From Tribonema minus (Eukaryota > Sar > Xanthophyceae > Tribonematales > Tribonemataceae): 64,000 bases of DNA. A program made the translations under genes and the position numbers. Each line of letters opens with the position of its first letter. Position 1 is the first letter of the stretch. The stretch is from the NCBI GenBank assembly GCA_017506865.1, contig JAFCMP010000557.1:62001-126000 (forward strand), read 5' to 3'. The notes beneath the pieces are model-generated. The model did not search any database. It was not told the origin of the DNA and was given only the letters and a program-made list of their open reading frames with translations. Positions 2,238 through 64,000 of the stretch are shown here, piece by piece.

Positions 2238-2245
2238 GCGGGCGT

Positions 2246-5034: not shown

Positions 5035-8000
5035 TCAGGGCACCCCCTCCTGGCGCCGTATGTCCACGTGGCTCTCCGCGACGCACACAAAGTTGGGCGA
5101 AGGGCAGTCGTAGACGTGTCCCGAGAAGCCGAGGACGCCCGTCGCCGCGTCAAAGCTGAAGAGCGTGATGGTGTCCGTGTCCTGGTTGGCGGCGAGGAGC
5201 GTCGTCCCCGTGGGGTCGAACTGGAAGTGGCGCGGCGTGCGCCCGCGCGTGTGCGTGAAGGAGACGACGCTCAGCTTGCCGCCCTCGCCGCACGCGTCCG
5301 TGTCCGAGTTGATCGCGAAGACGGCGATGGAGTCGTGGCCGCGGTTCGAGACGAGGACGTAGCGCCCGGAGGGGTCGATGCAGATGCGCCCGCACGTGTT
5401 GAGCGTGCCGGGGAACGCCGAGGGGATGGTGGAGATGCTCTGCACGAGGCGCAGAGTTGATTTGCTTGAGCCTGCCTCAAGCGTCTCGGCGATGGTCGCG
5501 TTGAACTCGAAGACGGAGACGGTCGAGGACAGCTCGTTGATCACGTACACCGTGTTGAGCGTGGGGTGGAAGCAGATGTACCTGCGTCGCGGAGAATGGT
5601 GGAAGAGAGGGGGCGGGTTACGAGTGTGCATCGCGGTGGATGGTCTGTGTTTGTACTTTGTGAAGCATGTCGCACACACCATGTTGATGTCAATGAATCA
5701 ATGAGGGTATGTTGGCCGGCTGGCTTCAATCAGCGTCATGGTGAAAGCGCAGCAGCATTGGTATACTTCCGAAGTATTACCCAAAAATCACGCACTCCCA
5801 ACAAGTACTTGAAACTGCCATGCAGATGACCTACTATAAAGCATCTGCTCCTCCGAGCTCATCAAAAATGATCATGAGTGGAAATTCAGCTCCTACAGCC
5901 ACACCACCGATTTTCGTGTAGACGTCTGAATCTGCTTGTATGTGATCCGCCACGCCAGTAGTGGCTGAATGCCTCGTTCATTGATGCAGCCGACACTGAT
6001 GCCGTGACGACTTAGCAGTCTGAGCGATATGACCAATACCTTGGTGCACAGGTATACATGCTTTTAGAAAACGCAATATGTGTGATACCACAGGATTTTC
6101 TCGCTGAGTGCATATGTCAGCCACACACCGCTTTTCGATTTCCAACACGCCAATCACGCAGCGAGTTTTTGGAGCTTCAACAAACCAATCGCACCCATCT
6201 TAACGTGGGCTCCGCAGCTACATATCCTGCATAACGGACTCAGGTGATTCAGTGTTCTGAGCACAGCTGGCGCCACTACACGTTTACGCGACACAAAACT
6301 ACAGCAGCAACATGGGAACTGATTTCATTGATACACATACATAGACCAGACTCTGCATGCAGCATGGGCTTTGCAAATTCCATGTTGTGTACAACGGATC
6401 ATCTTTTCAAAACTTCAAGTGCAAAGGTGAGAAAAGTTGGACTGACATCCAGGGGGTCCGTGCGCATCCACCACTCTCCAGTCCACGCGCAATGGCGCAC
6501 GTGGCAAAGCATGCATTTGCGACAGGCTAATAATGCCTGCTGTCACGTTAAGGTACAAGAATCTGGGAGGGAAAAACTAACCTGGGTCCGTGTGCCCCAC
6601 CCCCCCGACCCCGCATGCGATGGTGCACGAAGGCAAATCAATTGTTTCCACAACTTTTTCTATTTGACAGTCAATTAAAAAGTACACGTGTGAATAATTA
6701 CAGTGTGATTGATAGAATACACAAGCGCCTGCCTTCAAGCGTTCGTCAATACAGTAAATTTAAGGGCAAACTGAGCTGCGCTCGTGCGCCCTCACCCCCC
6801 CCCCCCGGCCCGCACGCAATGGTGCAGGTAAGCAGACATGTTGCTCTTCCGAAAGCTGTTTCATTTAAAAACTGCAAATAGAGGTAAAATCATGCAGAGT
6901 CTACAATCGTCAAGTACAGAAAAATCAGAGAGAAAAACTGACCTGGGTCCGTGCGCCCCCACCCCCTCCGGCCCGCACGCAATGGTGCACGTGGGCGTGA
7001 GCGTCCCCGTGGCCTCATCGTACAGGTGCTGCTTGATGTTGTCCTCGCCGAGATCGGGCACAAAGGCGACGCGTCCGAAGAACGGGTCCAGCACGATCGC
7101 GTGCGCGTGCGGCTCCGACTGGCGGTTGGCGAGGTGGTCCGATATGTCGCGCGCGACGACGCGCTTCGGCGGCTCCAGCTTGACGGACACCTCCTCCAGC
7201 ATGCCAGCGGGGGTCATGGGCATCTGAAAGGGGATGAACAGGGGGGGGCGGGGCGCGCAACGGTGAGGGATGGGCTGCGATGACCAAGTGTTGAGCGCTG
7301 CTGCGTCGCGTCGCAGCGTTACTGCCAGCTGGATTGCGCCGTAACCTAAACGCTAACCCTGGACCCTAAACCTTCTGGTGCCCGCCCTACGCGCGTCACC
7401 GCAGCTCGGGCGCTGGGGGGCATCGGACGGCTAAGACGCAGCGCCACCAGCACTCAACCTAACTCTGCGCGAAACGCCGCGGGCACAGGCAACTGTGACC
7501 CTAACCCTAGCGGCGGCTACCGCGACTCACCCGTGCCGATAACCGAGTCCCAGTAGTTGCAGAACAGCATATATAGCATATATAGACTCGTGGCCAATGA
7601 CTGCAACAGCGGCGACCACGGTTATTGGTGGAAGGCACTTGCGGCTAACCATCCCTTGTCACCTAGAGCTCTACGATCTTTTGATTCGTTTCCATATATC
7701 ATGTAGCCACATCCCTAACCCTAACCCTGATGGAAGATGTAGTGATGCAAGGCTAACCCTAGTAACTGCGGAAAAATATCTATGATTATTTAAATTTACT
7801 AAAAGTAATAACTATGGGGAAACCAAATCTCATTTGCGTACCGCGACTCACCGTGCCAATGACCGAGTCCCAGTAGTTGCAGAACAGCATGTGCTTCGCG
7901 GGCACGTCGACCGTCAGGTAGCACGTGCTCTTGCCCATGGCGGAGCGGCTGACCATGTGCGTGAGCTCGCCGCTCACGGGGCTCACCGCGAACGCCGCAA

Positions 8001-9389: not shown

Positions 9390-9625
9390 GCCCTGGCGCC
9401 GTCACAACCCCCGAACGGGGGAGGTAACTTCAACTGCAACTTCAAAACTTCGAAACGTTCTTCTGTGAAACAGTATATGCAACACATGAGGACTCAAGCC
9501 AGGCCAGCGAGCAGAGAAATTGGTGATTGAGCCGGAGGTAGGAACGTTTGGTTTTCCCTTTGATCACCCCTGTGCCAGCAGCAGCTTCTCTGTTGTTAGT
9601 CCAGCACTTTCTGCGCCGCTTGAAA

Positions 9626-10051: not shown

Positions 10052-10329
10052 CGCTCATGAAACTGTCTGCTGCATGAGTTGCTGTTGATGTTGCTGACGT
10101 ACTGGCAGGCTGCATGTCCTCGAGTTAGGGGCGCGTGTCTAACGTGGCTGTACATCTTCAGGTGCATCACACCTGATGACTGGGCACGGAGTATTGCCAT
10201 GCTCGCCACGCTCATGGTGGATGTGCGGAGACGTATGACCGAGAACCACCGCCTTCATGCACACATTGCGCATGGCATCGTAATGCGCAGTGCCTCCTTC
10301 CTATACAAAACGCCTGCATACTTCACTAC

Positions 10330-11039
10330 ACATTATGAAGTATAGGGTTGAAGCACGTGCTTTATAGAGCTGAAGGGATGGTGAGGCGCTGTTCCTGCAT
10401 GATTGCCTGCTAGGGCTCTGCTGTAGCGTAGTGTGGCTGGCCTGTGATAAGAGGCTTCACAGCCTTATCTTACGCCCGTTCCCCATACAAAGGTCTCCAT
10501 AATAACGTTCAACTGCCCAGCAAAGAGCGGGCGCATGCAGCATGATAGCTTCCGGCACATGCAGCGGCTCAGGGTCTGTTTGTTGCATTTGGCAGCGGTG
10601 AATGAGTGCATACGCACGATGCTCTCGACACGCGTCGCGGAGTGCACCGCGTCCGCTTATGAATAGCAATACTCAAGGAACTCCAGGGGTGGACGGGCGT
10701 GACCTGGCAACCGCAGTCTGCCAGCAACACATGCATACCCTGCAGTGTTGGAGACGGCATTGGGTGGCCACGCGCGTCGCGGGGCGGTGCCTCTTGCGGG
10801 CGGGCCCTATCACGCCGATTACGGGTAAACTGACAACATCCAATGCATGCACACACAAGGCGACGACGCCCCGAGCAGTCGGTTACTCGGGCATGGGCGC
10901 TCTCCTATCATAGCTCTCCAACGAGGCGCGGTCGCAAAGCAGACGTTGAGCGCTGCTGCTGCTGCTGCTGCTGCTGCGCACTTCCCAAGCCCGGCGCCGC
11001 CAGCTCCAGCTGTGCATCGCCGGATGGCATCGCAGGTGG

Positions 11040-11071
<32 letters not shown>

Positions 11072-17430: not shown

Positions 17431-20400
17431 CCGACTTACGTATGCATCGGTATGATCAGATGCATTGGCACGAATTGTGGCATGCTCATGATCTGCACTG
17501 AACGCGTCGCCTGTGTCCAGCAAGCGTGCTGTACCTGAGACACCCCGTCGCTTCCGCCCTCCGGCAGCTCGACGAGAAGCAGCGCGAGAAGCCCCAGCAA
17601 GAGCGCGTTCAGGGAACGCACGGGCCCGTTGAGCGCGCCGCCCCCCTCGAAAGTGGCGAGCGCGTCCCCCGCGACGGGCGGCGGCGGCGGCGGCGCGCGC
17701 TGCTGCTGCGGCGGCGGCAGCGCACGCTGCTGCAGGCCGAGCGTGACCGCCTCAAGGAGGCGCCAGTTGCCGCCGTTCGACAGCGCCTGCTGCGCCAGCT
17801 GCGGGGAGCGATGTTGAGGGGGGGGTGGGGGAGTAGGGGGATACTGCACGTGAGGTTTCTGCACATACATGCGGGCCATATACAATGGCTCATGCATATA
17901 TGGCTACTAAAATATATGGTTCATACATATATATACGTTAAGGTGCATGAGATTGTGCAGGGATGTTGAAGCTGTGTGTGTTTGCTGCACGTCTCTGCCG
18001 CCTTGCTTGCAGCAGACGGTGTGTGAGCTGCTGCGCCTACGATCTCCGCCTTGAGGACGTGCCCCGCCAGAAACCGTTGGCGCCATTTGTGGGTTCACAA
18101 ACACCGCATCTTCCGTTGAGCTGTCGAAAAACGCATTCCACCGCAATTCTGCGAGGCGGGCTGCCAACGGCGGCTACGCACGGGGTCTGCAGGTAGTGCA
18201 GGGTCTGCAGGTAGGTATGTATTTGCTTATAATAGTCAAGCCAGTCTGAGACCTGCTGCGCGCCCAAGATTTCAGTGGCACCGTGCGGCTAAACGCGCCT
18301 GAGCACTGCCACCTGTGAGGCACGTCACCACCTGAAGTGCGCCTCGGCCCTCGCCGGCACTGCGCAGCTGTACCCTGAACTCCATTCACTGGGAAGTGCA
18401 GCCCAAAAGCAGCGCAAACCTGTTGCGAACATGTAGTACCCGAAGTACTAAACTACCTTCACAAGACACATGACACTGTAGATTCTGGTAGCAGACTGGA
18501 CATGTACCATCCTGGGCTCTTTCGCGCCAAAAGCGAGAACCAATGACAGGTACTGACACTAATATGGGCGGAATGTAGCGTGTGTAGACCGACATATGGT
18601 AAGTAAGAGTACTGACATAAAACTGCAAGTACCACATGGAGGCCTGCGCACCTGTGGCGAACCAGCCACCCACACGCACAGCGCCGCAGATTGGCACCGC
18701 GACGTCAGCAATCACGCCGAGCCTGGGGAGGCGCCCTGGACGCAATGCAGCGCACATACACTAACCTATTCAAGTAGAAGCACACAAATAAAACGGCAAG
18801 CACCACATGGAGGCCTGCGCACCTGGGGCGAACCAGCGACCCACGCGCACAGCGCGCGCGCCAGCGCCGCCAGGTGCACGCAGAGGGCCAGGCCCGGCGG
18901 AGCGCCGCTGCCGTCTTCGCAGCGCACGCCCCCCCTGAAGGTCCTTATTAGCAGCGCGTGCCCCTCCAGCAGCAGGTCGAACGCAGCCTGTGCGAAGGGG
19001 GGCGCCGAAGACGAGAACACGCGTGAGCGGCGTGTTGTGGAGCGCAGCCTAGGGTTCGTGATGCGTGCAGCGGCCGTCACGTGGGCAACTACCCCTGACC
19101 GTAACCCTAACCCAGCGTGTCAGGCCTGTCATCTTCAGGATTAGGCTTAGGGTTAGGATTGGGATTAGGGTTAAGGTCAGTCAGGGTTAGCGCGGCGGCT
19201 CCCCTGAGAATCCTGGTCGCCTGAAGGTCCTTATTAGCAGCGCGCGGCGTTCCGGCAGCAGGTCGAACGCGGCCTGGCGGTAGGACTATGGCGCGATGAA
19301 TGGCGGTGTGCGCTGCTGGCTCAGCGCTGTGACGCGTTGCGGTTCAAGCGTGCGTCGCGCATCCCGTGATGGTTCACCGGCGACCGCGGAGGCAGTGTGA
19401 CGACCAATCAGCTAACCCCTCCCCTAACCCCAACCGTAACACTTACCCTGAATATTTGAATCATCCGGCTGTGCTCCTCGTGAAATCTCCGTGAAATCTC
19501 GCCTGGGACATAAAAGACCCCAAGATAACTGTGAAGCCGTATCACTGAACCATTCAACACTAATACAGCACACAACGCACACACACCGCACCGCAGTAAA
19601 TCGTTCGCACTGGCACGTGTCACGGGCGGTGCAGGGGGGCCAGCCCCAGCGTCGGCGGCGCAAGGACCACACAGCGGTACATCTGAACCGTTCAGCAGTA
19701 CACACACAGTACACTGCGGCGCACTGAATCGTTCACCTGCAGCGCGGGGACGTGTCGCGGGCGGTGCAGGGGGGCCAGCCCTAGCGTCGGCGGCGCAAGG
19801 ATGGGGACGCCCGCCAGGCACACCCGCAAGTCCGGCCCCCCGTGCTGCAGGAACGCCGTCAGTGCCTGCGCGGAACGGGTGCCAGAGGAGGGGCGTGTCA
19901 TACGGCGCTAACGCTGTGTACGGACCGCTACTGCAGCGTATGTACATTACCAGGCACACCCGCGCGTCCGGTCGCCCGAGCTAGAGAAACGATGTCTGTG
20001 CCTGCACAGAGCGCGTACCGCAAGGTGGGCACCTGGACTCGTTGGCCAACGTTGGACAGCAACAGGTCGTTGATGCTCTTGAGAGTATTCCAGGTGCACC
20101 CTTGCGTCATCCGCTCCGCAGCAGCGCTCAGCAACGGCTGCGCTGCGAACCGGGTTGGGCCGCAAGCGGAACGCTAGCGCGACGCGCAACACCACAACAG
20201 AACCTTTACCATCCGGTTTCTGCCGAAACGAGCTGCGAGCTGCGAGGGGCGCGCCGCGCGTGTCTGCAGCCCGTCCCCCCTGCTGCCTCATCAAAAAGCA
20301 GCAGCGCTCCACGGCGCGTGCACGACTTAGGGGGTAAGGTTACGCTAACTTTAAACTCCGACCCTCTATCAAAGTCATTCGCCGTCTTCTCGTAGTCAAA

Positions 20401-23400: not shown

Positions 23401-25596
23401 CACCGTCGGCAATGTAAGATCGAAACGAATGAGCAATGGCATGAGCGGCACGCAATGCACAAACCCAAGTGATGTGCGCCGCGCTTGAGGTGAAGGGGGC
23501 GATGCAGCATGATTGATTCAGCAGCGCCAGCAGCACCTCCAGCAGCGCGAGCTTGGGCGCGCGCGCGGACAGCAGCACCTGCGGACGAGCGTGGCACAGG
23601 AGCGTCATTGGCGAACGACGATAGCTGCGAACGCAGGACGGCATGAGCACTTGCTGATCCCATGCTGCCTCCCCCCCCCCCCCCCGCCCTCACACGGCTC
23701 TGATAACGAAATAACATTTGTTCGAATGTAGCATGCTTTCGTCGATGGCGGCATGCACTGCGCCTGAGCTTGTGCATGGGCGACACAGACAATGAGCACG
23801 TGAATGGACGCCGCAGGGTTCAGCAGCTGCTTGCTCGTGCAATCACACGCTTCCTCGTCTTCAAGCCGCCGTTACCGCCCTCTGCTGGCGGCGGGAAGCA
23901 GCGCAATCCCCACCGGCGCGCACGGCTGCGAACACGCCCCCAACGCGCCCTGCGGCAGCGCTCAAACACATACCTGCCTACCCTTAACACTTATACCTAC
24001 GTACCCTCACCTCGAAGCCGCCGTCGTCGTCCTCCAGCAGCTCCGGCGCGCTGTCGACGGCGGTGAGGGTCAGCAGCGCTCAGAACACATACCTGCCTAC
24101 CCTTAACACTTATACCTACGTACCCTCACCTCGAAGCCGCCGTCGTCGTCCTCCAGCAGCTCCGGCGCGCTCTCGACGGCGGTGAGGGAGAACACCTCGC
24201 GCGCGCCGGCACAACCGCTCAGCAGCGCCGCGAGCGCCGCCGCGGCGCGCGGCGGCGCGCGCGCGTCCAGCGCGTAGCGCGACCACGTCACCAGCTCGTC
24301 GTTGCTCTGGGGTGCGCGGTGGCGTTTTGGGGGGGGAGGGGTGGGGGTGGCAGCGGGGCTGAGAGGTGCCGCAGAGAAAGAATAGGTGGTCGCTGGCGCT
24401 TTCGTACGCTTGTGCTGTGAAGTGCGGCCACAGGTGGCGGCAAGTGATGAGCTTGTCGTCCCGCTGGCGCATCCAACGCGTAGCGCGCCCACGTCACTAG
24501 CTCGTCGTCCCTCTGGGGTGGGCGGGGGCGGTTTGGGGGGGGGGGGGGGGGTGGCAGCGGGGCTGAGAGGTGCCGCAGAGATGTAATCAGTCATTGGCAA
24601 AAGCAATCAGTCGTCGCTGACGCGCCGCGGCGCGCGGGGGCGCGCGCGCGTACAGCGCGTAGCGCGCCCACGTCACCAGCTCGTCGTTGCTCTGGGGCAG
24701 GCGGTGGTGGAAGGGGGGGGGGGGGGGGGGTTGGCAGCGGGGCTGAGAGGCGCCGCAGAGAAGGAATCAGTTGTCGCTGACGCTTTCATATGCTTTTGCT
24801 TTGGAGTGCGGCCACAGGTGGCGGCAAGTGATTAGCTCGTCGTCCCGCTAGCGCGTAGCGCACCCACGTCACCAGCTCGTCGTCGCTCTGGGGTGGGTGG
24901 TGACGGTAGGGGGGGGGCGGCGTTGGCAGCGGGGCTGAGAGGTGCCACACAGAAGCAACCAGTCGTCGCTGATAGTTTCATGCGTCCGTGCTGTGGAGTG
25001 CGGCCTCAGGCGGCGGCGCGTGATCAGCCCATGGTTGCTGTGATGGGGCGAGGGGAGCAGCATTGACAGCAGGGCGAAGTTGCCCACAAAGTAATCATTG
25101 AGCGTCAGCCTCCGCGGCCGCGCCTCCTGGGATACAACAAGTACGCAGACCTCGCAGTGCGGCGCACGCAACTGGCACGCGGCTCTCGTCTTGCCTCCCC
25201 ATGTGGCGCACGCGCGGTTGTCGCGCCGTGGCGCCATCTCATGTCGCCCTCTGGATCAGGATTAGGGTTAGAATCTGCAGCAGCGGGACTGTGGTTCAGC
25301 CTGAGCATGCACACTTGTGCGACATGCTCCCAGCTGCCCACCGTATCGTACGCGAACCGTCATTGGCGGCGCGCGCGCAGACGTGCCTTTGGCTGCAACT
25401 GACGTGAAGTCCTACACGCGGTCAACCCCCGTCCGGCCCGCTGGGCGCCAATATTCAACTTCAAGCGTCATCAATACCGCTGTTACATTGTGAGATCAGG
25501 CATGTCTCTCGCACCTCTGCGTGCGGGGCGGCGAACGCAACCTCGCACAGCGCGGGCAGCAGCCCCGGCTCCCGCGCCACGCGCGCCGCCGCAGCT

Positions 25597-25631
<35 letters not shown>

Positions 25632-41300: not shown

Positions 41301-44300
41301 TTGATCAGCTCAGAAAGTCCCTCGATGATGCATTGGGTTAGTCTCAGCGGCCTTATGCGCGCCAGGCGATGCGCGCAAGACGACCAACGCCGCCACCACA
41401 CCCGCCTAACACAGCGGCACTTGGGTAAAACACGTACCTTGACAATACCGATGCCATTGGGCAGGTTGCAGGTGGCCTCCGTAACTGCCACCTTGATGGC
41501 GTTCTGCGCGGCCTCCACGGACGTCGTGAAGCCAAAACTGCGATCCAGCAGGTCCACGTCGTTGTCGATGGTCTGCGCGGCGGAGGGGGTGAATACGGGG
41601 CGGAGGAGGGGTGATTCATGTCGTTGTCGAGGGTGTGTGAAGCGGGGGTCAACACGGAGCGGAGGAGAGGTGAGAGAGAGCGGATCCATGTACGTCATTG
41701 TCGATGGTCTGCACAGCGACGGTGAACAACGGGGCGGAGGAGATGTGAGAGGGAGCAGATGCATGTCGTTGCCGGGGATCTGCAAAGCGGGGGCGAACCT
41801 CAAGTAAATTGTAGCAGAGCAAGCGGCGACAGGGAGCCAGCGTCGCCCATGAGCCTGCTTGGTCTCTCGCATGGTGACGTGCCTGATGCTTCAAGCCCTC
41901 ATGCTCCAAGTTCATAATACTTCAAGCCCAAATGCTTCAAGCAATTGGGGCTCACGAGAGCAGAGGTGCTTGCTCATCATACTACTGGTCTGCTAGTACT
42001 CCCTGCACCTGCTGCAGGGACGAGTATGGTGCGCTGAGTTGAGCTGCGCAGCAGCAGCAGCAGCAGCGCTCGGCAGATGGCGCGCATGGCTCACCTTGGG
42101 GATGCCCGCAACCGCAATGTTGAGCTTGCGCTCCAGGCACGCGTGCGCGATCTTGTCGGCGCCTCTGTGCGTGCCGTCGCCGCCGATCACGTACAGGTGC
42201 GTCACCTGTTGAAGCACATCAATTCGATGTGGCAGCGAGCAGCAAAGTACAGGTGCGTCACATGATGAAGTGCAACATGTAGAACGTGGCAGCGAGCAGC
42301 AATGACCGATCACGTACAGGTGCATGTGCATCGCTTGTTGAGAAGGAACACTTCAACAATCAGCGAGCAGCAAATGATAATCACGTACAGGTGCGTCACC
42401 TATTGAAGAACATCAATTTCTACATGGCAACGAGCAGTGATGAATAGGCACAGGCCATGAGCACTCTATGAACAAGCAAGGCTTCTTGGGACTCGACTGG
42501 GGCACAGCATGGTGCGTCTTCAAGATCACCTGACTGAAGCAGTGATGCGTCTGCTAAGGACATGAGACCAGCAGCGTTCAAAGTACCCCCAACGGCAAAT
42601 ACGGAAAAACTGATACGGAAAACCGCTTAGGGTTAGGGTTAGGGTTAGGGTTCGGCTTCAGACAGCCCCGGGGGGCGCGTCACTGCTGACAGACAGCCCA
42701 TGCACATGGCACGCGCGGCGCAGCACGGGGTCATCGCACCTCGACCTAACCCCAGCCCAAACCCTAACCTAACCCTAACCCTAAAGGACACCTCAGAGCA
42801 GCCGTCGCGAGCGTTGCGCGCCATGCTGAGCACTGCAACGCAACACGCAGAGGAGCGACCGCTGTTGGGCCACGCGGTCCCGGGGACCACGAGCTGATCA
42901 TGAGCGTCTTGACAACGGGCGCGTGGGGTTTGTGGGCGCGAGTGCACGATGCGAACTTCAACTTGTCGCGGCCATCCTCGGCTCTAGCATCTGCGTCGGG
43001 CGACGCACGCGGCCGATGCAAGCGCCCTGCGCACGGCGGCTGTCTTCACAGCGAGCGCTCTCGCATGCGCGTTATGGACGCAGCGCGAAACTGTGTGCGT
43101 TGGGTGCCCGTTCTGACGCTGGCAGCTTCAAGCGGCCACCTGTTGAGTGACATCGATCATGTGCACCAGCGGCCCAGAACGTCATTTGTCGTACCATGCG
43201 CATCGGGCGCTCTGTAGAATTTGTGTTAGGGCAAGGGATGGGGTTACCGGCATGACGCTCGCAGACAAAGCATTGCAATGCCCTGACCCTAGCCCCAGTT
43301 GTGCGCACAGCGGCATGCCACCCACCTCGTGCTTCTGGAGGAACAGCAAGATCTTGTCGAGGTCAAAACCGCCGCGCGAGCTCCTGCGATGAGAGGGCAG
43401 CGCAGGCAGCGCGTCAGTCCAGAAGCCACAGTACACACATGTACAGTACACCTGTACGGTTGACCTGCGACGCGTGCCTACCCCAGCACGCCCCCTACAC
43501 CGGTACTTGGAACGGTCCCCATGAACGCACCGCCGCTGCATCCTTTATGGTGAACATGTACGGTAAACATGTACAGTACACATGTACTGTACAAGTGCAG
43601 TACACCTGCGACGCGTGCATACCCAACACACGCCTCCAGACCGGTACTGGGAACAATCCACAACATCGCGCTGCCGCTGCATCCGGCCGGACACCCCAGT
43701 AGCAGTCTCATACGCCGGATGTGCAGCATCCGCAGCTGCGTTCTCGGCGTACACGCGCAATCGTGATGTGCCGCGGTCTGCACACCGTGCAGGCCGGCGC
43801 CGCCGGCGCCGCCGCCGCCGCCGTCGCCGCCGCCGCCGCAGCCGGCAGGGAGGGGGGAGTCTCTACACGATGTCGCCGTCAGCGTTCAACTGCGTCGCGC
43901 AGCGGGCGCACCAACAATCGCTATTGCATATGCTTTGCAGTGCATCGCGCTGGCAGCTGCGAGGTGCGGTGCAGCGCCCGAGTACAGCTACTGTGTGCGG
44001 AGTACCTACACAGTACGGTCCCGACTGTTGCTGCCAAAACCGTGGCGCTGTGGCGCGCCATACCCCTGCACTACGACGCCTCGCCCAGACTGCAAACGCG
44101 CCACGCACACGCACCCCTGATGCTCCCGCAGCGTGTAGGTAAGTATCGCGCATCCCGCCCGCAAACCGCCAGCAGGCGTGCGCGGCAGCGTGCGGGCAGC
44201 AGTTAAATGTGCTACAAGGCTGCAATGACCCTGAACCTGGGTGCCTCATGCCACACACGCACACATACACCCACGAGTCCGTATCAGTGTTACACCCCCC

Positions 44301-44884: not shown

Positions 44885-44952
44885 CTGCGGGAGAGTGGGG
44901 GGGGGGGGGGGGGGGGCGTTCAGTTCAGGGAGGAGGGAGGCAGGGTGCTCTA

Positions 44953-45245
44953 TGTGCTCCAGGAGGATGCGGTCGCGCAAGCCGAGCAGCTGGGGGGGGG
45001 GGGGGGGGCAGATTCGTTTATTATCTAGAGAACATCAACACTTTGTTCTAAACAAAATCTAATCTTAGGTGACAATTGTTACAAATATGTCGCTCTAATT
45101 CAAAAAATAAAAGGTCCAGCTACATACTATAACTATTTATTGGATTGCCTCAGCTCAGGGAGGAGGCGCAGGAGGCGGGGGAGGGGAGGGAGGGCGCTCT
45201 GTGTGCTCCAGGAAGATGCAGTCACGCGGGCCGAGCAGGGGGGGG
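44953..45245 (-). repeat. Two copies of the PFK exon 44884-44550 start
   Basis: The exon start [12 protein letters not shown] is repeated upstream as LLGLRDRILLEH (about 44953-44997) and [12 protein letters not shown] (about 45195-45245). Both keep the C-tract and CAG acceptor. Confidence 0.9.
45017..45150. other. A/T-rich island between two exon-start copies
   Basis: About 130 bp of strongly A/T-rich sequence (AAAAAATAAAAGG, ATAACTATTTATTGG) sits between the two PFK exon-start copies in otherwise GC-rich DNA. It resembles an inserted fragment. I see no gene in it. Confidence 0.6.
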
Positions 45246-45479
45246 GGGGGGGCAGGAGGGGGAGGGGCGATGCACGACTTTGCCGCGCTGGCACGCGTGA
45301 GCGCGAGCCGGGCGGAGACTGGCTGCCACTGGCCTGCCTGATGAAATGAAGGCAGTGATGGGCGAGAGAGCAAGACGCGATTCCACGCCCCCCACTTTCC
45401 TTCATTGGCCCTCCGCACAGGGTAAATCGCTATGTAAAGACAGCGGCACTTCCAGCTGTACTAACGGATGCACGCCTCG

Positions 45480-48570: not shown

Positions 48571-51500
48571 TTATCGCTCAGCGTCTGTTGCGCCATTGGT
48601 GTCAGGCAGCTCTGCCTCTGCCGCGGCCTCCGCCGCAGCCGCCGCCGCTGCCCACGACGCCAGCGCCGCCGCGGCGACGTGCGCGCTCGAGCCGCCGCCG
48701 CGCCGCCGCGCAAGCTGCGGCACGAGCCCGAGGCGCTCGAGCTCCTGCGCCGCCGCCGCCAGCGCTGCGCCGCCGCCGCGCGCGCCGACGAGCGTCAACC
48801 CCGCGCCCGTCTGCGGCGCCGCCGCCGCGGCGGCACGCGCCGCATGTCGAGCCACCGCCGCCGCTGCGCCCGGCCCGAGCCCTGCGAGATCGACTGCGGG
48901 GAGGGTCAGACACGGGTCGCGCAGCGCGCCGTGCGCGACGGCGCGCGCCAGGATGGCGTCGGCGGCGGCGGGGGCGGCGGCTGCGGCGGCGAGCGCCTCC
49001 AGCGCGGCGAGCGTAAGCGCGCGGTCGTCGCACAGGCTCTGCTGCTTGTAGAGCAGCTCCTGCGGTCGTGGCGCGTGGGGGGCGGGGGGGGGCGTGTGTG
49101 AAGGGGGGGGGGGGTCCCAGAAGCGTCAAAGTGATGCTGACAGGGGCAACAGGCGGTGACGGTTCAGCGCATCAGCAACAACACGGCTGCCGTACTGCAC
49201 GGGACAGGGTGGGGACGAGAAACGCGCGGTGCTCATACAGCGACAGTGCAGCGGCGGCAGGAGCGCTGCACGGGCATTCTGCGCCGCAGCATCAGCAGCA
49301 CCGCAGCGCAAGATACCCCGCAATATAGGGGCACTACGGCGTCGCATTGCCAGCCAGGACTGCAACTACGCCGCAAACGCAGCAGCCCGGCGGCCCGGCA
49401 TGCGCGTCATCCCCCCGCACGAGACATCATAAATCACAGCAGCAGTGCTCGACGCACCACGACGCGGTCCGCGCGGCGCGCGGCGCCGCAGCCCTCCAGC
49501 ACCTCCGTCAGGAACGCCACGTCGCCGCCGCCGCCGCCGCTGCTGCTGCCGCCGCCGCCGCTGCTGCCCATCTGCATGTCTGCGTACAGCCCCCACAGCT
49601 CGTCGTGGCGCTCCGCGGCGCGGCACGTGCGCGCCGCCAGCAGCCGCATGCGGCGCGTCGGCAGCAGTCTCGCCTCCGTTGCCTCCCTCTGCAGAGAGGT
49701 TGAAGTTGAGGTTGAGGTTGGCAGGATGAGCCCCTAGGCGTCAGATGCGGTGCGCGGTGCAGAGGCATGCGCGCGTGGGCAAGCGAGCGCACGCAGCGCA
49801 TCGGCGGTAGCCCCGCTGTTGTTATCCCTCACTGTGTTGTGCGTAGAGGGAGAAAGAAGGCGTGTGCGCGGGCGGCGGTGCTGAGTCGGGTCAAAGCGCA
49901 TGCGCCCGCACGCTGAGGCACACGTGCTGCACAAATACAACTAAGTATGACGCACGAATCACGGCGGCGCCGCCGTGAGCGCATGAACGCGCCTGCTACA
50001 TGAAGTCAATCATGTGCACAAGCGAGGCGCAACAATGCTGCGAAGCGGCAATGTCGATGGAGGTCGTGCAGCAAACACAACAGCTGCAAGCAACAGCGAA
50101 TACTTGCCGCTTGTTCCAGGGATGACAAACACTTCAACTTCTTGCGGTTACACGTACCATGTACACCAGGGCGCGCTGCCAGTCGCCGACGCCGTGGCAG
50201 CAGCTCAGCGCCGCGGTGAAGCACAGCACATCCGGTGTGAACCCTGCACGCCGCATTGATGATACACAAGCGCACTGTAAGCAGCTGCTTGCGCACACGT
50301 ACACATCTGAAATTGGTGCATCTCACAAAGATAGCTGCCGCAAAGGTTGCACACATGTGCTCATGAATTGGGTGTACGTGACAACGCCCCCTGCCAGCAG
50401 CTGCCGTCAATGCAGCAGCTGCGTGAAGGTGCCACAGAACATCTCAAGAACACATCGATGACAATGCGCGCAGGCTCCGCACGCACCGTCGCTTAGGCAC
50501 GCAGCGATGATGATTGCGTGCGCATCAGCGTTTGCGCGATGCCAAGAGCCCTGCCTCTCGCCACGGTTGGCAATCGCCGCGTCGCAAGTGGCGCGCCGGC
50601 TCTGCCACGCATTTGCTCAGAGCGCAGCACTGAGGGCTTGAGCGGACACCGCGCGAGCACACCGCTTGGAGCGCGCGGACTAGCATGACTGACCATGCCA
50701 CGGCACATGAGAAATATAGCGCACGGTGGTGCCCGCAAAAGAGAAATGGCGCCGCTACGTGGATGCGGCTCACCGGCATTGCCGCGCGCCTGCTCAAAGC
50801 GCACTGCTCAAGGCTCAAAGAGAAGCCTGCACGTTCAAGTTCTGTGCGGGCTAACGCCTTAAGCAATGACACGGTGTCCCACAAGAGGAGAACGGCTCAC
50901 CAGCTTTGCCGCGCGTCTGCTCAAACAGTGCAAGGCCGCGCTAACGCTTGAAGCACTGTTTGAGCGCAAGGAAATGCCTGCAAATTCTTCAAACTTTGTG
51001 CGGGCGAACACTTTAAGCAATGACACGGTGTCGCGCACGCAAAGGAAGGCTCACCGGCTTTGCCGCGCGTCTGCTCAAATAGCGCGAGGCCGCGCTCGTG
51101 CTCGCCGGCCGTGGCGAGCGCCTCCAGCGCCGCGCCGTAGCCGACCGCGCCCGGCTGCAGCCCCTGCACCTCCATGCCGCCCAGAAGCGCCAGGGTCTGG
51201 CAGGCGCCATAAAGGGCAGCAAAGGGGAGCGACGAGCGGGGGTGGAGGTGTGAGGTTGCGGGGCATCCTTTCTTGTTTATCTGCTAAGTTCAGAGCGTGG
51301 GTGCTACCGCAATAAAGGGGCTGCGGCACTGAGGGGGATTGGCACGATTCCAGCCGTTGCCCGACGTTGCCGCGCTGCTGCGGCCCCTGCACCTCCATGC
51401 CGCCCAGGAGCGTCAGGGTCTGGCAGGAGCATAAAGGGCAATGAGCGGAAGTGGCACTATGAGGTTGCGGGGCATCGGCAGCTGTGAACGAAGTCCAGAA

Positions 51501-54069
51501 GGAGATGAGCTGTGTGATGATGCCTTTCTGGGCGCACCAGAGGGACCATGCTGCCGAGTAAACAACGCCACCTGCTACAAGAGGTAGCCACTGCAAGTTG
51601 AACTCATCATTCAGCCTACCTCAACTAATCATTCAACTCACCTCTGCCCAGCGGCGTTTCAATCTAGCATGGTGGCGACTGACGGTCACTGCTACTTCAA
51701 CTAGCCACTTCAACTGGAAGGATACATTCTCATCAATGGGCGAGTCACCTCCTCCCAACAACTCGCCGCAGCCGCGCCCGCCATTCCACTTTACGTGGTG
51801 AGCAACCATACACCACAACAACAACTAGTTGAAGTCTCATTGCTGATCGGTGCGGATGCCACTCGCTCTATCATGGTGGCTAGCAAGCGTTCACTACCAA
51901 AACAACCATTCACTTCAACTTGAAGTCTCATGATAGTGGGTGAGTCACCTCCTCCCAGCGGCCCGCCGAAGCCGCGCCCGCCATGGCCGCCAGATACGTC
52001 TTCAGGGTCGGCACCGGCCGCGAGGGGTCGGGCACATCGCCCGCCAGCAGCGCCAGCGCGCTGTACCACTGGTCGTAGTCGCTGCGCACGCGCGCACGGA
52101 AAGCACAGCGACGCCAAGTCACAAACAAGCAATTGCGCCACGTATATGTCGCCTTCGAGCGGAAGATCAGCCCGCTGTGGCGGTAGCATCAGCGCGATGT
52201 ACCACTGGTCGTAGTCGCTGCGCGCGTGCGGATGGAAAAGCATTAAAGAGTACAGCATTAGCAAGTCACAAGCCAATAGCTGCATCACATTACATGTCGT
52301 TTCAGAGCGGAGAAATCAGGCTGCTGAAGCGAATTCTTGGGGTCCCGCTGGCAGCGTCAGCGCGCGGGACCTCTAGTCGTAGTCGGTGCACGCGCGCGCA
52401 GACGGAGAGCACGACATGTGACCTATACAGCCAGGAGTTCGTGTAGCTGAGGTGCATGGTGAGCATGGGACGTCTCATTTTATTGCAACCGACAGGTGCT
52501 GCACCAGCAGCGCCGCGCAATGTTACCACTGTTCATAGTCGCTGCACGCGCGCGCGCGGAAAGTACGGCGACAGCAACTCACAATCCACCATGCGCGTTA
52601 TGTCGCAATTTGCTTCAAGGTGGAAGAGTAGTACTTAAGGTCTGCTGCTGTGGTTAGCAGCGCTTGCGTGCGGTACCGCTGGTTGTAATCAATGCACGCG
52701 CGCGCGGACGAAGAGCACGACATGTGAAGTACGCAGCAAGCAGTTCGCATTGACGTTGCTTGAGCGCACGCGAGCGTGAAGAACCGCGCTTTGCCACAGT
52801 CACTGCGCTGTGCCGCTACCCATAGCTGCTGTCCGTAATCGTTGCTCGCACTTAGGGATAGGATCAGGGTTAGGAGTAGTTATGGGGAGCACGACAGCGC
52901 CGCGCCGCAGACCGCTCGCGCCGAACGACACAAGTGACAGCGCACCGACCACACCACGCCGCGACCACACCACGCCGGCGTCACTTTCCAGCACTATTGG
53001 TGGGCCGCAGGCCCGAAGACCTGCAGGGCGATGTTAAGCTGACTATCAAGCTGACTTACAATGGTAGCTTCTGTGCACATAGAACGACGCACATCACATA
53101 TGAAGCTTGCCGCAATGACATTTCGACAAGCGGTGAGCCTCAACTTGTGCACCACGGCTCCGTGCGCATCTCCGTAGCCGCCCACCCCAGTCGCGCTCAG
53201 GGTAACGGTTAGGGTTACAGAGAGCACGGCGGCGCCGCGCCGCAAACCGCTCGCGCAACACGACAGCATGTCGATGTCGCTTTCGAGCACGTGCACTTAC
53301 AACAATGCGCATCACATATGAGGTCTATCGTGACAGTGCTGGACAAGCAGTGGGCCGTTGGGCCTCACAGTCGTCTTTTACCACGTACGACGCACATCAC
53401 TTACGAAGCCTGACGCAATAGCGTCAGAACGAGACAAAGCCTCACCTCGTACACCACGGCTCAGCGCGCATCTCGCCCAGCAGCGCGCACGCGTCGCGCC
53501 ACCGCCCCTGCAGCGCACGTTCGAACACCAAGTTCACTTGTCAGACGCCAACTTCACCTGTGAAGTGAGTCCAGCATGTCAAAATCGATATCACAAGTCG
53601 CGCGCGCGACACGGACAGACGGCACGAGTGATTGAGCCGAGGCGCGCAACGCCGTCAATGGCAAACGGCCCGGGCAGTTTTCCCTACGAGTGAAACGGAC
53701 TTCAATGTGTATGTAGGTACCGGTCCTGCGGAGCACTGACGCGCGGCAGCCCTAAACGGCACGAGAATTCATGCCAGAGGCATGCACGATCGCGAGGCGA
53801 AGATACCGCGCGCACTTCACCGTACAAGTGAGGCAGCTTTTGTCCGCGCGTTCCTCCGCATGGTGTGGATCGGTTCGTGAGGAGCGGCTCGGCAGCAGCG
53901 CTCAACATTGGCAACATCAGACCGCGCGACAACTGCACTCGATGATCGCGTGGAGATGAGGGCGCCACCAGCCAAGCACACGCTCAAAGTGAGGAGCAGA
54001 TTGGCGGCACTTTGCACTTGACACCCCCCACCAAAACGCACAGCGCGGCTGTCCCCCCAGACTCACTCA

Positions 54070-54102
<33 letters not shown>

Positions 54103-57100
54103 TCATATCGCGCCAGTTGCGGACCCTGCACTTGCGCAGACGCTGCAGAACCCGCACCACCACATTGAAAGCCTCCATGCTGCCAACCCACAGACCACTG
54201 TGTGCATCCATTCCAGCTTCTGGTCGAGGCGCTGCCGTCCCTGGTGTTCTGCCATGCTGACGGCAGCGCACGCGCCGCTCGGCGCAGCCACACGCCTGCG
54301 GCTCAAGCGCACGTCACAGGCAGCATCGAGGCTGCGGGCCTGCCGTGCTGCCGCGTTTGTGCGGCAGCGACGGCATCTCACGCGGTGCGCGATGAGGCGG
54401 CACCGCTTGGTTCAAACCGCACCCGCTTGGGCTTACGGTCAGCTATCAGGTTGGAGGTAGCATGGATGCCCACCGTGAGCTGCCGTGCGATCTCACTTAC
54501 TCTCCTCATCTGACAGGTTTGCACACCAAGGCTGGCATGACATCGCATCTCTTCTTGGGGCTGAACTCACAGTCGAGGCAAGATTTGAGGCCCAACACTC
54601 ACATTCTTCTGACACGCCCTGATTGCGGTCGCATATGCTGCAGGCCCGCGCTTCGTCCACTCGGCGTCTGCGCCCCTCGCGCCGCCGCCGCCGCCGCTGC
54701 CGCTGCCGCCGCCGCCGAAGCGCGCGCGCATGCGCGTGAAGACGTCAAGCGCGCAGTCGGCGCTGTTGTTGCTGTTGGCACGCTCGCACGCCGTGAGCGC
54801 CGCCTGCAGGCAGATGGCGTTCGGCGGAGTCCCCAGGGCCTGCGTGCGTGCGCGTGCTTGCGGTAAGTCATACGTGTGCGTGCGAGCGCGCGCAGCGGCG
54901 ATGGGCGTTCACGCGCACGCTTGATGTATTTGACTGCAGCAGAGCACTAAAGTGGAGGGTGCAGTGGCGCTGTTGTGCGCGCTTGATGTGTGTGCGACGA
55001 TAGCGGAGCGCTGTAGTGGTTGTCATGCGTGGCAACGCGGCGTCCCAATAGCGAGCCCTGTCGTGACTGCGATGAATGCCTTGAGTGGCACGGGCGTTGC
55101 AGACTGGTGCGCCGGCTGGGTGATGATGCGTCGGTGTCCAGCATCACGATTTGCTGCAGACTAAAGTAACAAACAAAAGCACAGTTCAAAAGCACAGTAT
55201 TGCATCCAGTGCACATGCAATCCATGGAGAGAGGACTTGTCGCGCCCCAAGCGAAATTGATACTTCGAACTAGAAGTACAGTTGACATTTGGCGGCGGCG
55301 GCGTTTGAGTGTTGCCGTTGAGACACTTTCAGACTGTCACACGACATGTGGATTCCGTACAGCAAGCTTCAAGTTAGATGCCATTCATCTGGGCTTTTTC
55401 GCGCCCTGAGCGAGAATTAATAAAAAGCACAGTGGGAAGCCGTCATTGCGGGCACACCTCGGATGCACAGCGGAAGGACGCTTATTTTGAGCTGTACATG
55501 GCAATGAGTCTGGTCTGGTAACCGTCATAGTTCGCAGCATCAATACTATTGATAACTACAGTCACGGTGCTCACAATGTCAACGGCTACCGAGCGGTCAA
55601 TGCTTCCCAGAAGTCAGAGCGGCAGGGTAGCTCACCTCCACGTGGCTCAGCAACTCGTTGAAGGCTTTCTTTGAGCTGTACATGGGCATGGATCTGGTCT
55701 AATAATCGACTTGGCTTGCAGCGTCGAGGTTTGCAACAACAACGGTGTGCATTAGCACATTGCGACCATTGAGCAAACAGCGCTTGCCGGAAGTGAATAG
55801 GGTGAGGGTTGGGATTAGAGTTAGGGCTGAGGGAAGCTCACCTCCATGTGGTTCAGCAGCGTGATGGCCTGGTCAGCGCCGACCCTGCGCAGCAAGCGCA
55901 AGCAACATCAACTAAGCCTGTGACGTTCCTGCTGTATGAACTTCAACTGCCACACACCTCAGATGCGCAACATGGTCATGACAGAAACCAGCGCACTGAA
56001 GCATGGTAAAACTACTAGTGACTACCGTTGATGAGTACGCCCAGAACTGCGCAACGCGTGCAAAGAGAGTGGATGAGGGGGCGATGCGCTGCGGAGTCGA
56101 TGGGAGCTGATGCGCCTGCGCACCTGCCGACCGTGGATATGATGCTGGCGAACGTCCCAATCGTAGACGCGACGCCCGCCTCGCGCCTAATGAGCACTTT
56201 CTGAGCGCCACAACACACCCGCAAACTGCGGACGCGGATCAAGCTGGCACAAAATGCGCGGGCGCACAAGCGCAATTCGCAACTACCCAAATAGTAGCAG
56301 CATTTACGCACCTGCCAACCGTGGATATGACGCTGGCGAACGTCGCGGTGGTGGGCGCGACGCTTGCCTCGCGCTTAACAAAGCACTTCTGGCTGCCAGT
56401 ACGCACGTGCCGACTGCGTCGATCGCGCCGGCGCACGTCACAATGATGGTTCGACGCATACAACCACTGAGTGCCTTACGGTAGCAACTGCGCACCTGCC
56501 GACTGTGGATATCACGCTGGCGAACGTCGCGTTAGTGGGCGCGACGCCCGCCTCGCGCATCTCGCGCAGCAGGCCGGAGGCGCGGCGGTGCAGCGGTGGC
56601 GCGCTGCGCTCGCAGGCGAGCGCGAGCGCGCCAAACGTGACGGCGTCCGGCCGGATGCCCGCCGCTTGCATCTCCTGTAGCGCGCGCGTGTGTGTGTGTG
56701 GGGGGGGGGGGGAGGGGGGGGGGGGGCAGGAACGGGGAACTTCAAACACGCGCTTCATGGAGCGCTGTCTTGGCGGAGGGCGTCTGCATGCAGCGTACCG
56801 CGACATGAGAGGGGGGGCGCGTGGACCTGCGGCGCGTCGCCGCGAAGGGACGGTGAGGGCGTGATGGCGTCGCGACGGGCGCCCAACGCGCCTATCCCCC
56901 CGCGGCGGGGGGGCAGCTGCGCCAGCGTGCGAGCGTCCGCGGGCTGCATGCTCACATACATACATACATTTGTACGGAGATGTACAGATGTACATAGGTG
57001 TAAACATGTACTCAGCTGTGCAAGACGGGGGCAGAGAGCGGCATGCAGCGATCAGGGGGTGAGCGGCGTTGAAGGGCGTGAGGGTGGGCGTGCTGAGCAC

Positions 57101-60100
57101 TTCCGCATCAAGCCGCATGCCGCAGCGTACACTCTCCCTGCGGAAACAAACGGCAGGCGCCATTTGAGGCCGAAGGTGATCGTAACCTCCCTAACCCTAG
57201 CCCTAACCCAATGCACCGCCGCAGTCGTCGCCACTTGCCGACCCAGATGCTTCTGGTCGGAGTACATGGCGGCGTTGACGCAGTACCTGAAATGGAGCCA
57301 ACATACTGTACATGCACGATATGAGACTTGGAAGACCACAGGTACCGTGAATGATACTCTCGTTTCTGGAGTACACTATAGCTTAAAGACCGAACTGTGC
57401 AACGGCTCCGCGGCGTCAAGGCCCCAAACGAGCAGGCGCGCCTTCCTCGGCTGCTGAGGGTCTGAGCCAGGGGTACAGCAGCACCGCAACGCATGCGCGG
57501 TTCGCAGAGGCTGCACGCTGATAGCCACTGCGTGTCTGCTGCCTCGACTGTGCGTTTATGTGTGAATTGCTGTCTGGGGACTGATGTTCGTTGAAGTCAA
57601 TGTAGCATCCAGCGACTCGCCTCAAAGAGCGCCACGTGCACGCTGCCCCTAGTGCATGCGCACACGCACGCCGATTGCCAAGTTGCCCAGCACCGCAATG
57701 CACGCGCGGCACGCAGAGGTTGCGCGCTGACAACGCGGTCCCGTATGCTTGATGCGCCAATTGTACTTTTCATGCACGTGATTGTTGTTTGGGCTTGATG
57801 TCGTTGTTGAAGTCAATGTGGCATCCAGCAACTCGCCTCGAAGAGCGCCACCGCGCGCTGCCCCTGGCGCATCCTCGCGAGCACACTTATGGCGGTATTG
57901 AATGATACCACATCAACCACGCCGCGCCTTGCCATGGCGTGAAACAGCTCCATCGCAGGGTCCCACTGGCGCGCGGCCGCGCACGCGGCGAGCGCGGCGT
58001 TGAACGTGTGTACGTTGGGCGCGAGGGGTGCGGGGAGGCCGTCCAGGACGTCGAGCGCCTCGCACCACTGCCCGCCCCTGCGCGCGAGCGGAGAGCAGCA
58101 GCGGAGACGATGAGAGAGATTGTGTATGCAGGTGGGTTAGCACGTACCAGCAGCGGGGAGTGCTGGAGTGCTCGCGGGGCAAGCGCCACGTTGCATTTAT
58201 GCGTGCACGTCTGGCGCCTAGCGGCTCTGGGCAGGCAGTCGCACCGCTGCCCGCCCTGCATGGATAGGGACCAGCGGAGGCGGCGCGAGGACAGCCTTGA
58301 GGGCAGTGCGCGGTGGCAGCAGGCAGGCGAGAGGTACGCACGCGCGTGCTGGGGCCCGATGGTGTCTGTGACCACGAGAGAGCGGGGACTTTCGGTACGC
58401 AGTTGCACTGCCGCCCAAACACCGACGTGGGAACAGATCGTGAGTCATGCGTCAGCGCAGCGGATGGGGCGGGCAGCGGGCGACAGCAGCGGGCAAATAT
58501 GAAGCACGCATGAGGCAGGCGCCACATGGCCACTACGTGTGTGCGGCGGGCGGCGAACGGCTCTGTGCAGGCGACCGTACCGCCGGCCAACCCTGCACGG
58601 CTGGACTCTCAAGCGAAGCAACAAGGCGGCAGTCGCGCGCAGAAGACAGTCTCACAGTGCGCGATGGCAGCGGGCCATGCACGAGCACGCGCGCGCGTGC
58701 CGCGATCGAACGGCGGCGGTGAGCGCTAGCGTCATGCGCTGCGAGTCTTTGGAGCAGACGTTGTCTCCCCGAGCGCACTGTTGTCGGACCGGTGTTGGAG
58801 ATGCATGTGGTTCACAGGTGGTTCAAACACAAGCTCATCATTGATTCTTTAGTTCAACCTGTTGACCTCACACTGCCCTTCACAAGCACAACAAGGGGCA
58901 GCAGCGGCGGTATTGGCAAGTGAAGGCACGTGCCCCCATGCGCGTTCGAGTCTGCAGAGACGCTTGGAGTGCGGCGCCGGCGTGGCATGCGTGTATGTAT
59001 CAAGGCACACCGTCGCAGCAATGTCAGCGGCAACAATGGCCCAAAACTGGCTTGAGGGGCGTTGTCAGCACTCTCACGCGCATTTGACGATGCAAATACC
59101 GCCCTCTTTCCGTCTGCTATCTAAGGCATGCGGCACTGCAAGAGTGACTCTCAAGTGACTCGCCTCCCCAGCGCCGTTATGATTGTGTTGTACGTGATGA
59201 GGTCCGGCTCCATGCCCCTCTGCCGCAGCTCCGACACCAGCACCAGCGCCTCCTGCCAGTTGCCCGCCCTGCAGAGTGGCGGCGGCACCGCTCACGCGTC
59301 AAGCGAAGGTGGGCCAGGTGCACAACCTACGAATGCAAATAGAGAGCGTCGCTTGCGAGACACAGTGCAGTGCTGCACAGCCCAGACAATGTAAGGTTTC
59401 AGGCTCGATGAGGCATTTCAGGGCTTGAACACTCAGCGTTCACCTCACCCTGGGCCGAACAACAGCGTTTTTTAATGTCAACAGCATTAGTTTATGTCTC
59501 GCTGTGCAGCGGGCGCCATGCTTGAATAAGCAGACTCTTTTGCCCAAATGGATTTGGGGCGCGGGAGGACTCCAGGGGCCTCCATAAGGTGCAGTGCATC
59601 AGAGAACCCATACTGAACTCTGCGTGAACTCTCAGAGTTTACACGATCCTGACATCAGACATGCCGACTCCCCATGCCTGTGAGCGCCGCAGAGCTAAGT
59701 GCTAGTTTTGTGCAATGTCAAGCTTGCATGTTAAAGCTTGAGAGTTGGATTTGATGTTGAAGCTTGAGGCAGCTTATACTTGTAGATGTACGCGCCTTGA
59801 CACCCCGGCCCTTTTTTTTGAGTGCGCCACTCTTGACATGTGGTCCTCTGAGGCCTCGCACCACCTGCTGTATGCGCTCGCAGCATCGCCGCTGTTGCTT
59901 CAACTTCAACTCATTATACCCAGTGCTCTTCATACACCATTGCGATTGACTACTGCAGCTGCTGTTCACACGTCGTGACTCAGCTCACCTGCTGCATGCG
60001 CTCATTGGCGCTGTTTGTGCGCGTAACTTCAACTTCAACTCAGCATGCCAGTGCTCTTCAAACACCATTGCGTTTGACTACATGGCTGCTGTTCACAACG

Positions 60101-64000: not shown

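Follow-up and report, generated by a model that had tools for sequence, protein, structure and literature searches.

Serial copies of exon edges in adjacent introns of the Tribonema minus genome

Introduction

Many introns in the genome of Tribonema minus carry serial, partial copies of the exons that they adjoin. Introns downstream of an exon hold copies of its 3′ end together with the donor (“tail” copies), introns upstream hold copies of its 5′ end together with the acceptor (“head” copies), and the copies lie in the same orientation as their source. A preliminary description, made from sequence alone, had reported this polarity for four genes in a 64-kb stretch of DNA (“the window”; ~60% G+C). 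Here, exon-edge copying is confirmed in the window and at other loci of the 158-Mb genome (554 contigs). How introns acquire their sequence is a long-standing question for which direct evidence usually consists of single events. Layered copies at dozens of edges within a single genome make it possible to measure how often exon-edge duplication happens, which polarity it has, where its breakpoints fall, and what becomes of the copies, which may preserve earlier exon states.

Gene models and approach

The window was compared with itself, and local direct and inverted repeat pairs were counted. Pfam matches confirm three of the four genes that had been named in the window, i.e., a lactonase (PF10282), PFK (PF00365), and a PPR gene. 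The fourth name, p115, did not hold up in this way, with no Pfam match for either of two fragments tested, and we refer to that gene as “putative p115”. An exon-level profile search for the chaperonin family returned serial matches to the same profile positions beside real exons on other contigs, and nine chaperonin loci from other contigs were each compared with themselves.

In PFK and the nine chaperonin loci, 89 splice edges were curated by eye using profile matches, reading frame, and splice consensus. In the edge test, the outermost 60 nt of the exon was aligned to the adjacent intron, and the threshold was the 99th percentile of 2271 comparisons with the introns of other loci, a null that includes the cpn60 paralogs L036 and L037. 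The remaining exons were predicted by a gene finder trained on the curated exons; the gene models are thus partly predicted. One acceptor of putative p115, near 26046, was placed manually, probably at the wrong position. In L029 and L033, the donor motif occurs several times each and the first occurrence was used; one further L033 donor was reset. Copies were located by aligning the outer 120 nt of each exon in eight genes and L030, leaving out four copy-poor genes. Forward simulations placed tandem duplications uniformly, constrained exons, and applied the same detection; they are simple and were not fitted to the data.

Exon-edge copies lie beside their source and in the same orientation

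Self-alignment of the window, a check that the preliminary description had proposed, yields 99 local repeat pairs, 94 direct and 5 inverted, with <500 bp between the members of 71 of the direct pairs. At the curated edges, the adjacent intron holds a copy of the exon edge in 30 of 89 cases (15/42 donors, 15/47 acceptors), compared with 0/89 for the reverse complement of the same intron and 1/78 for the intron on the exon’s other side (Fisher p = 1e-10 and 9e-9, respectively). These counts support enrichment beside the source exon as well as the reported polarity. Automatic gene models of the window give a similar picture: 34/80 edges match their own intron, 4/80 its reverse complement (all of them donors, i.e., 4/40 donors), and 3/80 the wrong-side intron. 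Twenty 10-kb loci were picked regardless of genes, two flanking the window and 18 elsewhere in the genome. Here, 26/194 predicted edges match their own intron, with 6 matches for the reverse-complement control and 5 for the wrong-side control, and copies are present in 11 of the 18 loci that have a predicted exon. Among pairs <600 bp apart, the twenty loci hold 127 that are direct and 12 that are inverted; a single locus, L016 (C179:500001-510000), contributes 44 of the direct ones. This locus is AT-richer and packed with tandem repeats, with 158 direct pairs, no inverted pairs, and no predicted exon.

The four named genes of the window comprise 28 exons with 48 inner splice edges. Exon-edge alignment finds 52 intronic copies (Table 1), distributed over 26 of these edges and 16 exons; a repeat-cluster rule scores 24 of the 48 edges as positive. 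The first PFK exon adds one acceptor with copies (score 62), for a total of 16–17 exons. Copies were thus found at many exons, as had been described, although at fewer than the >20 originally counted in these genes; the number of copies per edge, put at one to about nine, was measured as 1 to 10.

Table 1. Source exons and their intronic copies in the window
Feature	Position in window	Strand	Basis or remark
PFK source exon	40807..41049	-	donor AAG/GTGAGT; PF00365 match, curated splice edges
Six downstream copies of PFK exon 40807-41049 tail with donor, fading with distance	39810..40755	-	nearest ones form a 167-bp tandem array
One upstream head copy of PFK exon 40807-41049	41191..41267	-	self-comparison, exon-edge alignment
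Three upstream head copies of PFK exon 42095-42205	42247..42399	-	exon-edge alignment
Two upstream head copies of PFK exon starting 44884	44954..45269	-	self-comparison, curated edge, edge test
Putative p115 source exon	29327..29529	-	predicted gene model
Ten downstream tail copies of putative p115 exon 29327-29529	28036..29257	-	exon-edge alignment
Youngest clean case: 119-bp tandem duplication at exon 24130-24306	23955..24188	-	98% identical; 59 nt exon tail and 57 nt intron
Three upstream head copies of exon 24130-24306	24467..24887	-	exon-edge alignment
Upstream head copy of exon 23247-23379; tail copy 23046-23091	23519..23578	-	exon-edge alignment
Upstream head copy of exon 19737-19865; tail copy 19612-19666	19950..20001	-	exon-edge alignment
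Upstream head copy of exon 18823-18987; tail copy 18652-18684	19220..19273	-	exon-edge alignment
Downstream tail copy of exon 30153-30336, ending 25 nt before the junction; head copy 30461-30489	30057..30114	-	exon-edge alignment
Upstream head copy of exon 26965-27120	27352..27381	-	exon-edge alignment
Two downstream tail copies of PPR exon 56496-56674	56124..56374	-	exon-edge alignment
Four upstream head copies of PPR exon 51949-52081; tail copy 51749-51784	52190..52690	-	exon-edge alignment
Two downstream tail copies of PPR exon 51055-51196; head copy 51371-51419	50774..50942	-	exon-edge alignment
Downstream tail copy of PPR exon 57837-58077; weak head copy 58239-58256	57621..57657	-	exon-edge alignment; PPR Pfam match
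Downstream tail copy of lactonase exon 7852-8079; spacer 7571-7851 with dispersed-repeat piece	7532..7570	-	exon-edge alignment
Three downstream tail copies of lactonase exon 6943-7223	6454..6829	-	exon-edge alignment; PF10282

Copies are truncated exon ends that reach the splice junction

In the eight genes and L030, there are 134 copies at 60 edges, and 122 of them reach the splice junction to within 8 nt. Adjacent junctions are spaced from 56 to <400 bp apart (median 153.5, middle half 124–183 bp). Truncation usually affects the end of the copy that is distal to the junction: of the exon-side breakpoints seen within 120 nt, 68/79 lie 20–80 nt from the edge, a count that omits ends running to the limit of the 120-nt window. 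The arrays do not consist of whole exons duplicated in frame with a splice site at either end, since the copies are usually truncated and 39 of 44 net gaps break the reading frame. Some copies do retain both splice signals, and the gene finder calls these as small exons. Splice dinucleotides are intact in 49/54 donors and 41/48 acceptors, which is about what overall identity predicts. On several contigs, identity within repeat pairs varies between 66 and 98%.

Within arrays, the nearest copy is the best match to the exon in 19 of 27 cases, compared with 9.5 expected. Neutral simulation also yields this gradient (60–71%), and therefore the gradient does not identify the mechanism. The intron-side flank was analyzed in 50 of 56 matches; those dropped had an offset >5 nt or lay in L031 or L032. 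In 38 of the 50 copies, homology of the flank exceeds the 95th percentile for unrelated splice sites, and in 30 it exceeds the 99th, meaning that the duplicated unit crosses the junction; 12 of the 50 have no intron-side homology above the 95th percentile. The cleanest young cases, the 119-bp duplication and the 167-bp array in PFK, are tandem duplications straddling the junction.

Copying differs between genes and between paralogs

Across twelve gene models, copies occur at 54 of 146 inner edges and are absent from the other 92. Local direct repeats account for 19,904 of 65,831 intron bases (30%). Eight genes hold copies at 53/106 edges, with repeats making up 15–50% of their intron bases, and the other four at 1/40. 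The chaperonin genes L032, L035, and L036 have copies at 0/30 edges and L031 at 1/10; a looser rule adds one doubtful edge in L032. Copying is therefore not universal. The proposal that it is the main process of intron growth is partly supported: local, same-orientation duplication at edges supplies much of the intron length of the affected genes, and copies are almost absent from four of the twelve genes.

The cpn60 paralogs L036 and L037 have predicted exon lengths of 236, 238, 141, 300, and 207 in common. Their introns total 2434 bp (5% repeats) in L036 vs 6743 bp (50% repeats) in L037. One extra 645-bp intron is predicted in L037; without it, the totals are 2434 and 6098 bp. The predicted intron absent from L036 can be seen by comparing L036:4105-4607 with L037:7725-8868.

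Two PFK paralogs on two other contigs, L038 and L039, have head copies of their own, two and one, respectively, at one shared acceptor. The window PFK exon at 40807-41049 precisely lacks an intron that is found in both paralogs. By eye, the array copies of window PFK begin at approximately the position where the paralog intron sits.

Probable anchoring of duplications on exon edges

Repeat clusters at edges and within introns were counted in the eight copy-rich genes, leaving out the four with few or no copies. There are 53 edge clusters, 3 exon-touching clusters, and 10 intron-only clusters, whereas uniform-duplication simulations at two settings give ratios of 42:7:70 and 35:7:64. For pairs with ≥85% identity, the observed ratio is 31:4:1, vs 17:2:38 and 19:0:38 in simulations. 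Because introns in these first simulations were longer than those of real genes, the test was repeated with matched intron length (957 bp observed; 800 and 922 bp simulated). The matched simulations give edge:intron-only ratios of 48:75 and 53:91 for all pairs, and 25:43 and 28:68 for young pairs. Hence, the clusters are not placed independently of exon edges, as ordinary neutral tandem repeats would be, at least in these partly predicted gene models. Removing 80% of simulated intron-only events changes the ratio to 85:48, and removing 95% changes it to 98:13; the observed ratio falls between the two. Length matching thus lowers the suppression of intron-only events that is needed from ≥95% to 80–95%. 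The edge excess over the matched simulations indicates that duplications, or those that last, are anchored on exons.

Preservation of copies up to the junction

Identity was analyzed for 117 of 122 adjacent pairs (53 + 64). Mean identity is flat at about 0.90–0.91 on the exon side and about 0.70–0.71 on the intron side, with a step at the junction; unrelated splice sites have an identity of about 0.55. Two intronic copies compared with each other show about 0.82 identity on the exon-derived side vs 0.66–0.67 on the intron side. The simulated values are 0.86–0.87 vs 0.73–0.74 for exon-copy pairs, meaning that detection alone gives part of the contrast, and 0.77–0.82 vs 0.68 for copy-copy pairs (0.78 and 0.68 in the best-populated run). 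We weigh the exon/intron contrast lightly because the simulation reproduced much of it.

The spacer provides a sharper test. Of the nearest pairs that are ≥88% identical, 15/17 have >40 nt of unmatched spacer, compared with 3/54 in simulations, and the match ends 3–21 nt past the junction in 14/17. The expectation that copies end at splice sites is thus borne out, in that high-identity blocks tend to stop at the junction. A fresh tandem duplication for every copy is rejected for most of these pairs, given the unmatched spacers. Junction-limited preservation goes beyond plain tandem duplication, which does not predict it. Candidate explanations are re-templating from the exon, constraint on the copies, and unusually fast change in the spacer. 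If upheld, such preservation points to an unrecognized exchange between exons and introns.

Differences between copies and exons are unevenly distributed across codon positions 1, 2, and 3 (0.072, 0.056, and 0.167, respectively), with third positions accounting for 398 of 706 mismatches. Coding constraint on the copies, which a codon-position bias had first suggested (in one analysis from the same 50 of 56 matches as the intron-side flank), is ruled out by the net gaps, 39/44 of which are not multiples of three. Changes unique to a copy are enriched at position 3 (137/534 vs 168/1073), and a neutral simulation of serial copying gives a much weaker effect. Synonymous change in the exon combined with slow change in the copies would give a position-3 bias.

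A contrasting case in the lactonase gene

The lactonase belongs to an inverted gene pair (window 484-2423 and 4867-8112) whose aligned pieces are 76–91% identical. At the edge of exon 7852-8079, the intron of the inverted paralog scores 181 against the sequence that follows the copy, where the null 95th percentile is 56, and does not match the spacer that precedes it (28 vs null 30). The spacer itself has a marginal match to later intron sequence (31 vs null 95th percentile of 29). Positions 7585-7699, within this spacer, are one end of a dispersed repeat with at least 41 other matches at 90–100% identity. An insertion between duplicated exon edges may thus account for some of the events. A dispersed origin of spacers in general was rejected: with very common words skipped, both of the two other spacers searched match only their own intron, the lactonase spacer being the exception.

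Possible mechanisms

We consider it probable, without being certain, that the arrays are explained by recurrent local tandem duplication anchored on exons at splice junctions. Duplications of ~100–200 bp would repeatedly straddle a junction, having one exonic and one intronic breakpoint. The complete exon would keep its own splice site, and the extra piece would become intron, tolerated by virtue of lacking the opposite splice site. Repeated events at the same edge would push older copies outward, so that the array becomes graded by age and the copy closest to the exon usually matches it best. The mutation process would have to anchor duplication on exons rather than act uniformly, as could arise if one breakpoint must fall in exon DNA. 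The copies would be inert, and their exon-derived part would later survive, or be copied afresh from the exon, as the spacer decays. A bolder version, which we regard as speculative and fairly unlikely, is that exons repeatedly write their ends into neighboring introns and re-template the copies up to the junction, from DNA or from spliced RNA. If that is true, introns archive past exon states in layers and grow from a conserved master at each edge. To our knowledge, no described process of intron growth works by exon re-templating of intronic edge copies.

Several alternatives bear on individual parts of this scheme. Tandem duplications might occur everywhere and stay recognizable only at the edges of conserved exons; the simulations largely reproduce both the higher exon-side identity and the nearest-copy gradient, but they reproduce neither the junction-limited blocks nor the 31:1 ratio of young edge to intron-only clusters (17:38 and 19:38 simulated; 25:43 and 28:68 at matched length), and we judge such ascertainment to be quite unlikely. 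Gene conversion of copies by the exon, perhaps with spliced transcripts as the template, could refresh copies up to the junction. It would fit the blocks of 14 of the 17 high-identity pairs, which end 3–21 nt beyond the junction, the position-3 enrichment (137/534 vs 168/1073) that suggests that copies hold exon states of different ages, and the precise intron absence in window PFK relative to L038 and L039, which is what transcript-templated conversion would produce. However, the position-3 excess seems larger than a simple conversion clock predicts, and the PFK intron absence is a single case that could reflect intron gain in the paralogs. Conversion is unlikely in our view. Purifying selection could instead keep intronic copies if an exon end plus splice site acts at the RNA level. 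The identity step at the junction, which is also seen between copies (0.82 vs 0.66) and exceeds the simulated step (0.77–0.82 vs 0.68), is in line with this, and the rate of change seems lower in copies than at synonymous sites of the exon (position 3, 0.167 vs 0.072 and 0.056); selection would also account for the scarcity of intron-only duplications. Yet the frame-breaking gaps (39/44) speak against coding constraint, splice dinucleotides persist (49/54, 41/48) about as overall identity predicts, and 92 of 146 edges do without copies, with no obvious benefit from having them; selection is an improbable explanation.

Insertion at staggered breaks, which would leave filler DNA between direct repeats of the exon edge, fits the lactonase case: a ~52-nt repeat, filler containing a piece of a dispersed repeat, and a paralog intron that resumes from the donor of the copy. 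Unmatched spacers are, moreover, common. As a general route it seems to us improbable, given that intron-side homology is kept in 38/50 copies, that both tested spacers lack a match outside their own intron (very common words skipped), and that acceptor filler would presumably need a new polypyrimidine tract each time. Lastly, it is extremely unlikely that the arrays are an assembly artefact or complete tandem exons in alternative use. The gene finder does treat some copies with both splice signals as small exons, but identities from 66 to 98% on several contigs are unlike assembly error, and the copies are truncated and frame-shifted, at odds with alternative exons. Recurrent junction-straddling duplication, with later preservation of the exon-derived part, thus remains the reading that we favor.

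Relation to known routes of intron gain

Introners are dispersed elements that are similar to one another. The T. minus copies resemble them in that intron DNA is expanding across one genome, but they derive from the adjacent exon, and introner-like dispersal was not found: two spacers match only their own intron, and a PFK stretch has matches on its home contig and on three more, the two examined among these being PFK-like.

The preliminary description had attributed the copies to tandem duplication of AGGT-containing exon segments. In that model, as outlined with cases from Drosophila (PMC2891723), an exonic AGGT is duplicated and the segment between the copies becomes a new intron. The likeness lies in local tandem duplication involving splice-like sequence, as in the 119-bp and 167-bp cases here. 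However, the model as outlined there (PMC2891723) needs a duplicated exonic AGGT that serves as both splice sites, and none of the 79 exon-side breakpoints has AGGT within 4 nt. This zero is weak (background 2.6%, ~2 expected, p = 0.125); AGG is likewise not enriched, at 11/79 vs a background of 16.1%. These results speak against AGGT-driven intron gain as the driver, as does the location of the copies inside existing introns: the duplicated piece straddles a splice site that is already there. The process is intron growth, and AGGT intron gain is not supported.

Other reported events share some features with the arrays. In a potato gene, a tandem duplication across an intron–exon boundary is described as having made one new spliced intron (PMC4974935). 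As here, the boundary-crossing duplication carries splice signals and the duplicates differ by point changes, but the reported case is one event in one gene that created an intron (PMC4974935), whereas in T. minus dozens of edges carry copies in series, and it is existing introns that become longer. For Daphnia, the published account is of intron gain during repair of staggered double-strand breaks, with short direct repeats flanking whole new introns (PMC3443670). Direct repeats flank inserted sequence in both settings, and some spacers here are filler-like; unlike the Daphnia introns as summarized there (PMC3443670), the repeats here are mostly 20–80 nt of exon, lie inside existing introns, and are often serial. 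Direct repeats near splice sites have also been reported (PMC11782384), with lengths of 4–30 bp and the two borders of an intron matching each other. Those repeats are located at splice borders, as they are here, but the T. minus copies are longer than the lengths given in that report (PMC11782384), replicate one border, and lie within the intron. Among the open-literature matches listed, taken by title and abstract opening, there is no precedent for genome-wide serial copies of exon edges in introns, a weak negative in that subscription papers fall mostly outside this set.

Other repeats and sequence features

The window contains further repeats of several kinds. A direct segmental duplication links 10451-12224 with 15663-17429 (84% identical). 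Positions 59277-60005 and 63266-63999 form a direct repeat ~4 kb apart that is 74% identical and partly overlaps a 121-bp tandem array, and 62575-63276 is a long imperfect palindrome that is 83% self-complementary over ~700 bp. Telomere-like TTAGGG runs occur inside introns at 42627-42784, as well as in L033 and L037. A recurring GTTGAAGTTG / CAACTTCAAC motif was noted by eye in introns of PFK, L034, and L036. As to the kind of organism, a green alga, first assumed on base composition, was rejected, and comparisons of cpn60 and of tubulin did not give a placement. A chlorophyll a/c alga is probable: there are 92 exon-level matches to the light-harvesting family in the genome, and the best of these exons is nearest, among solved structures, to fucoxanthin chlorophyll a/c proteins.
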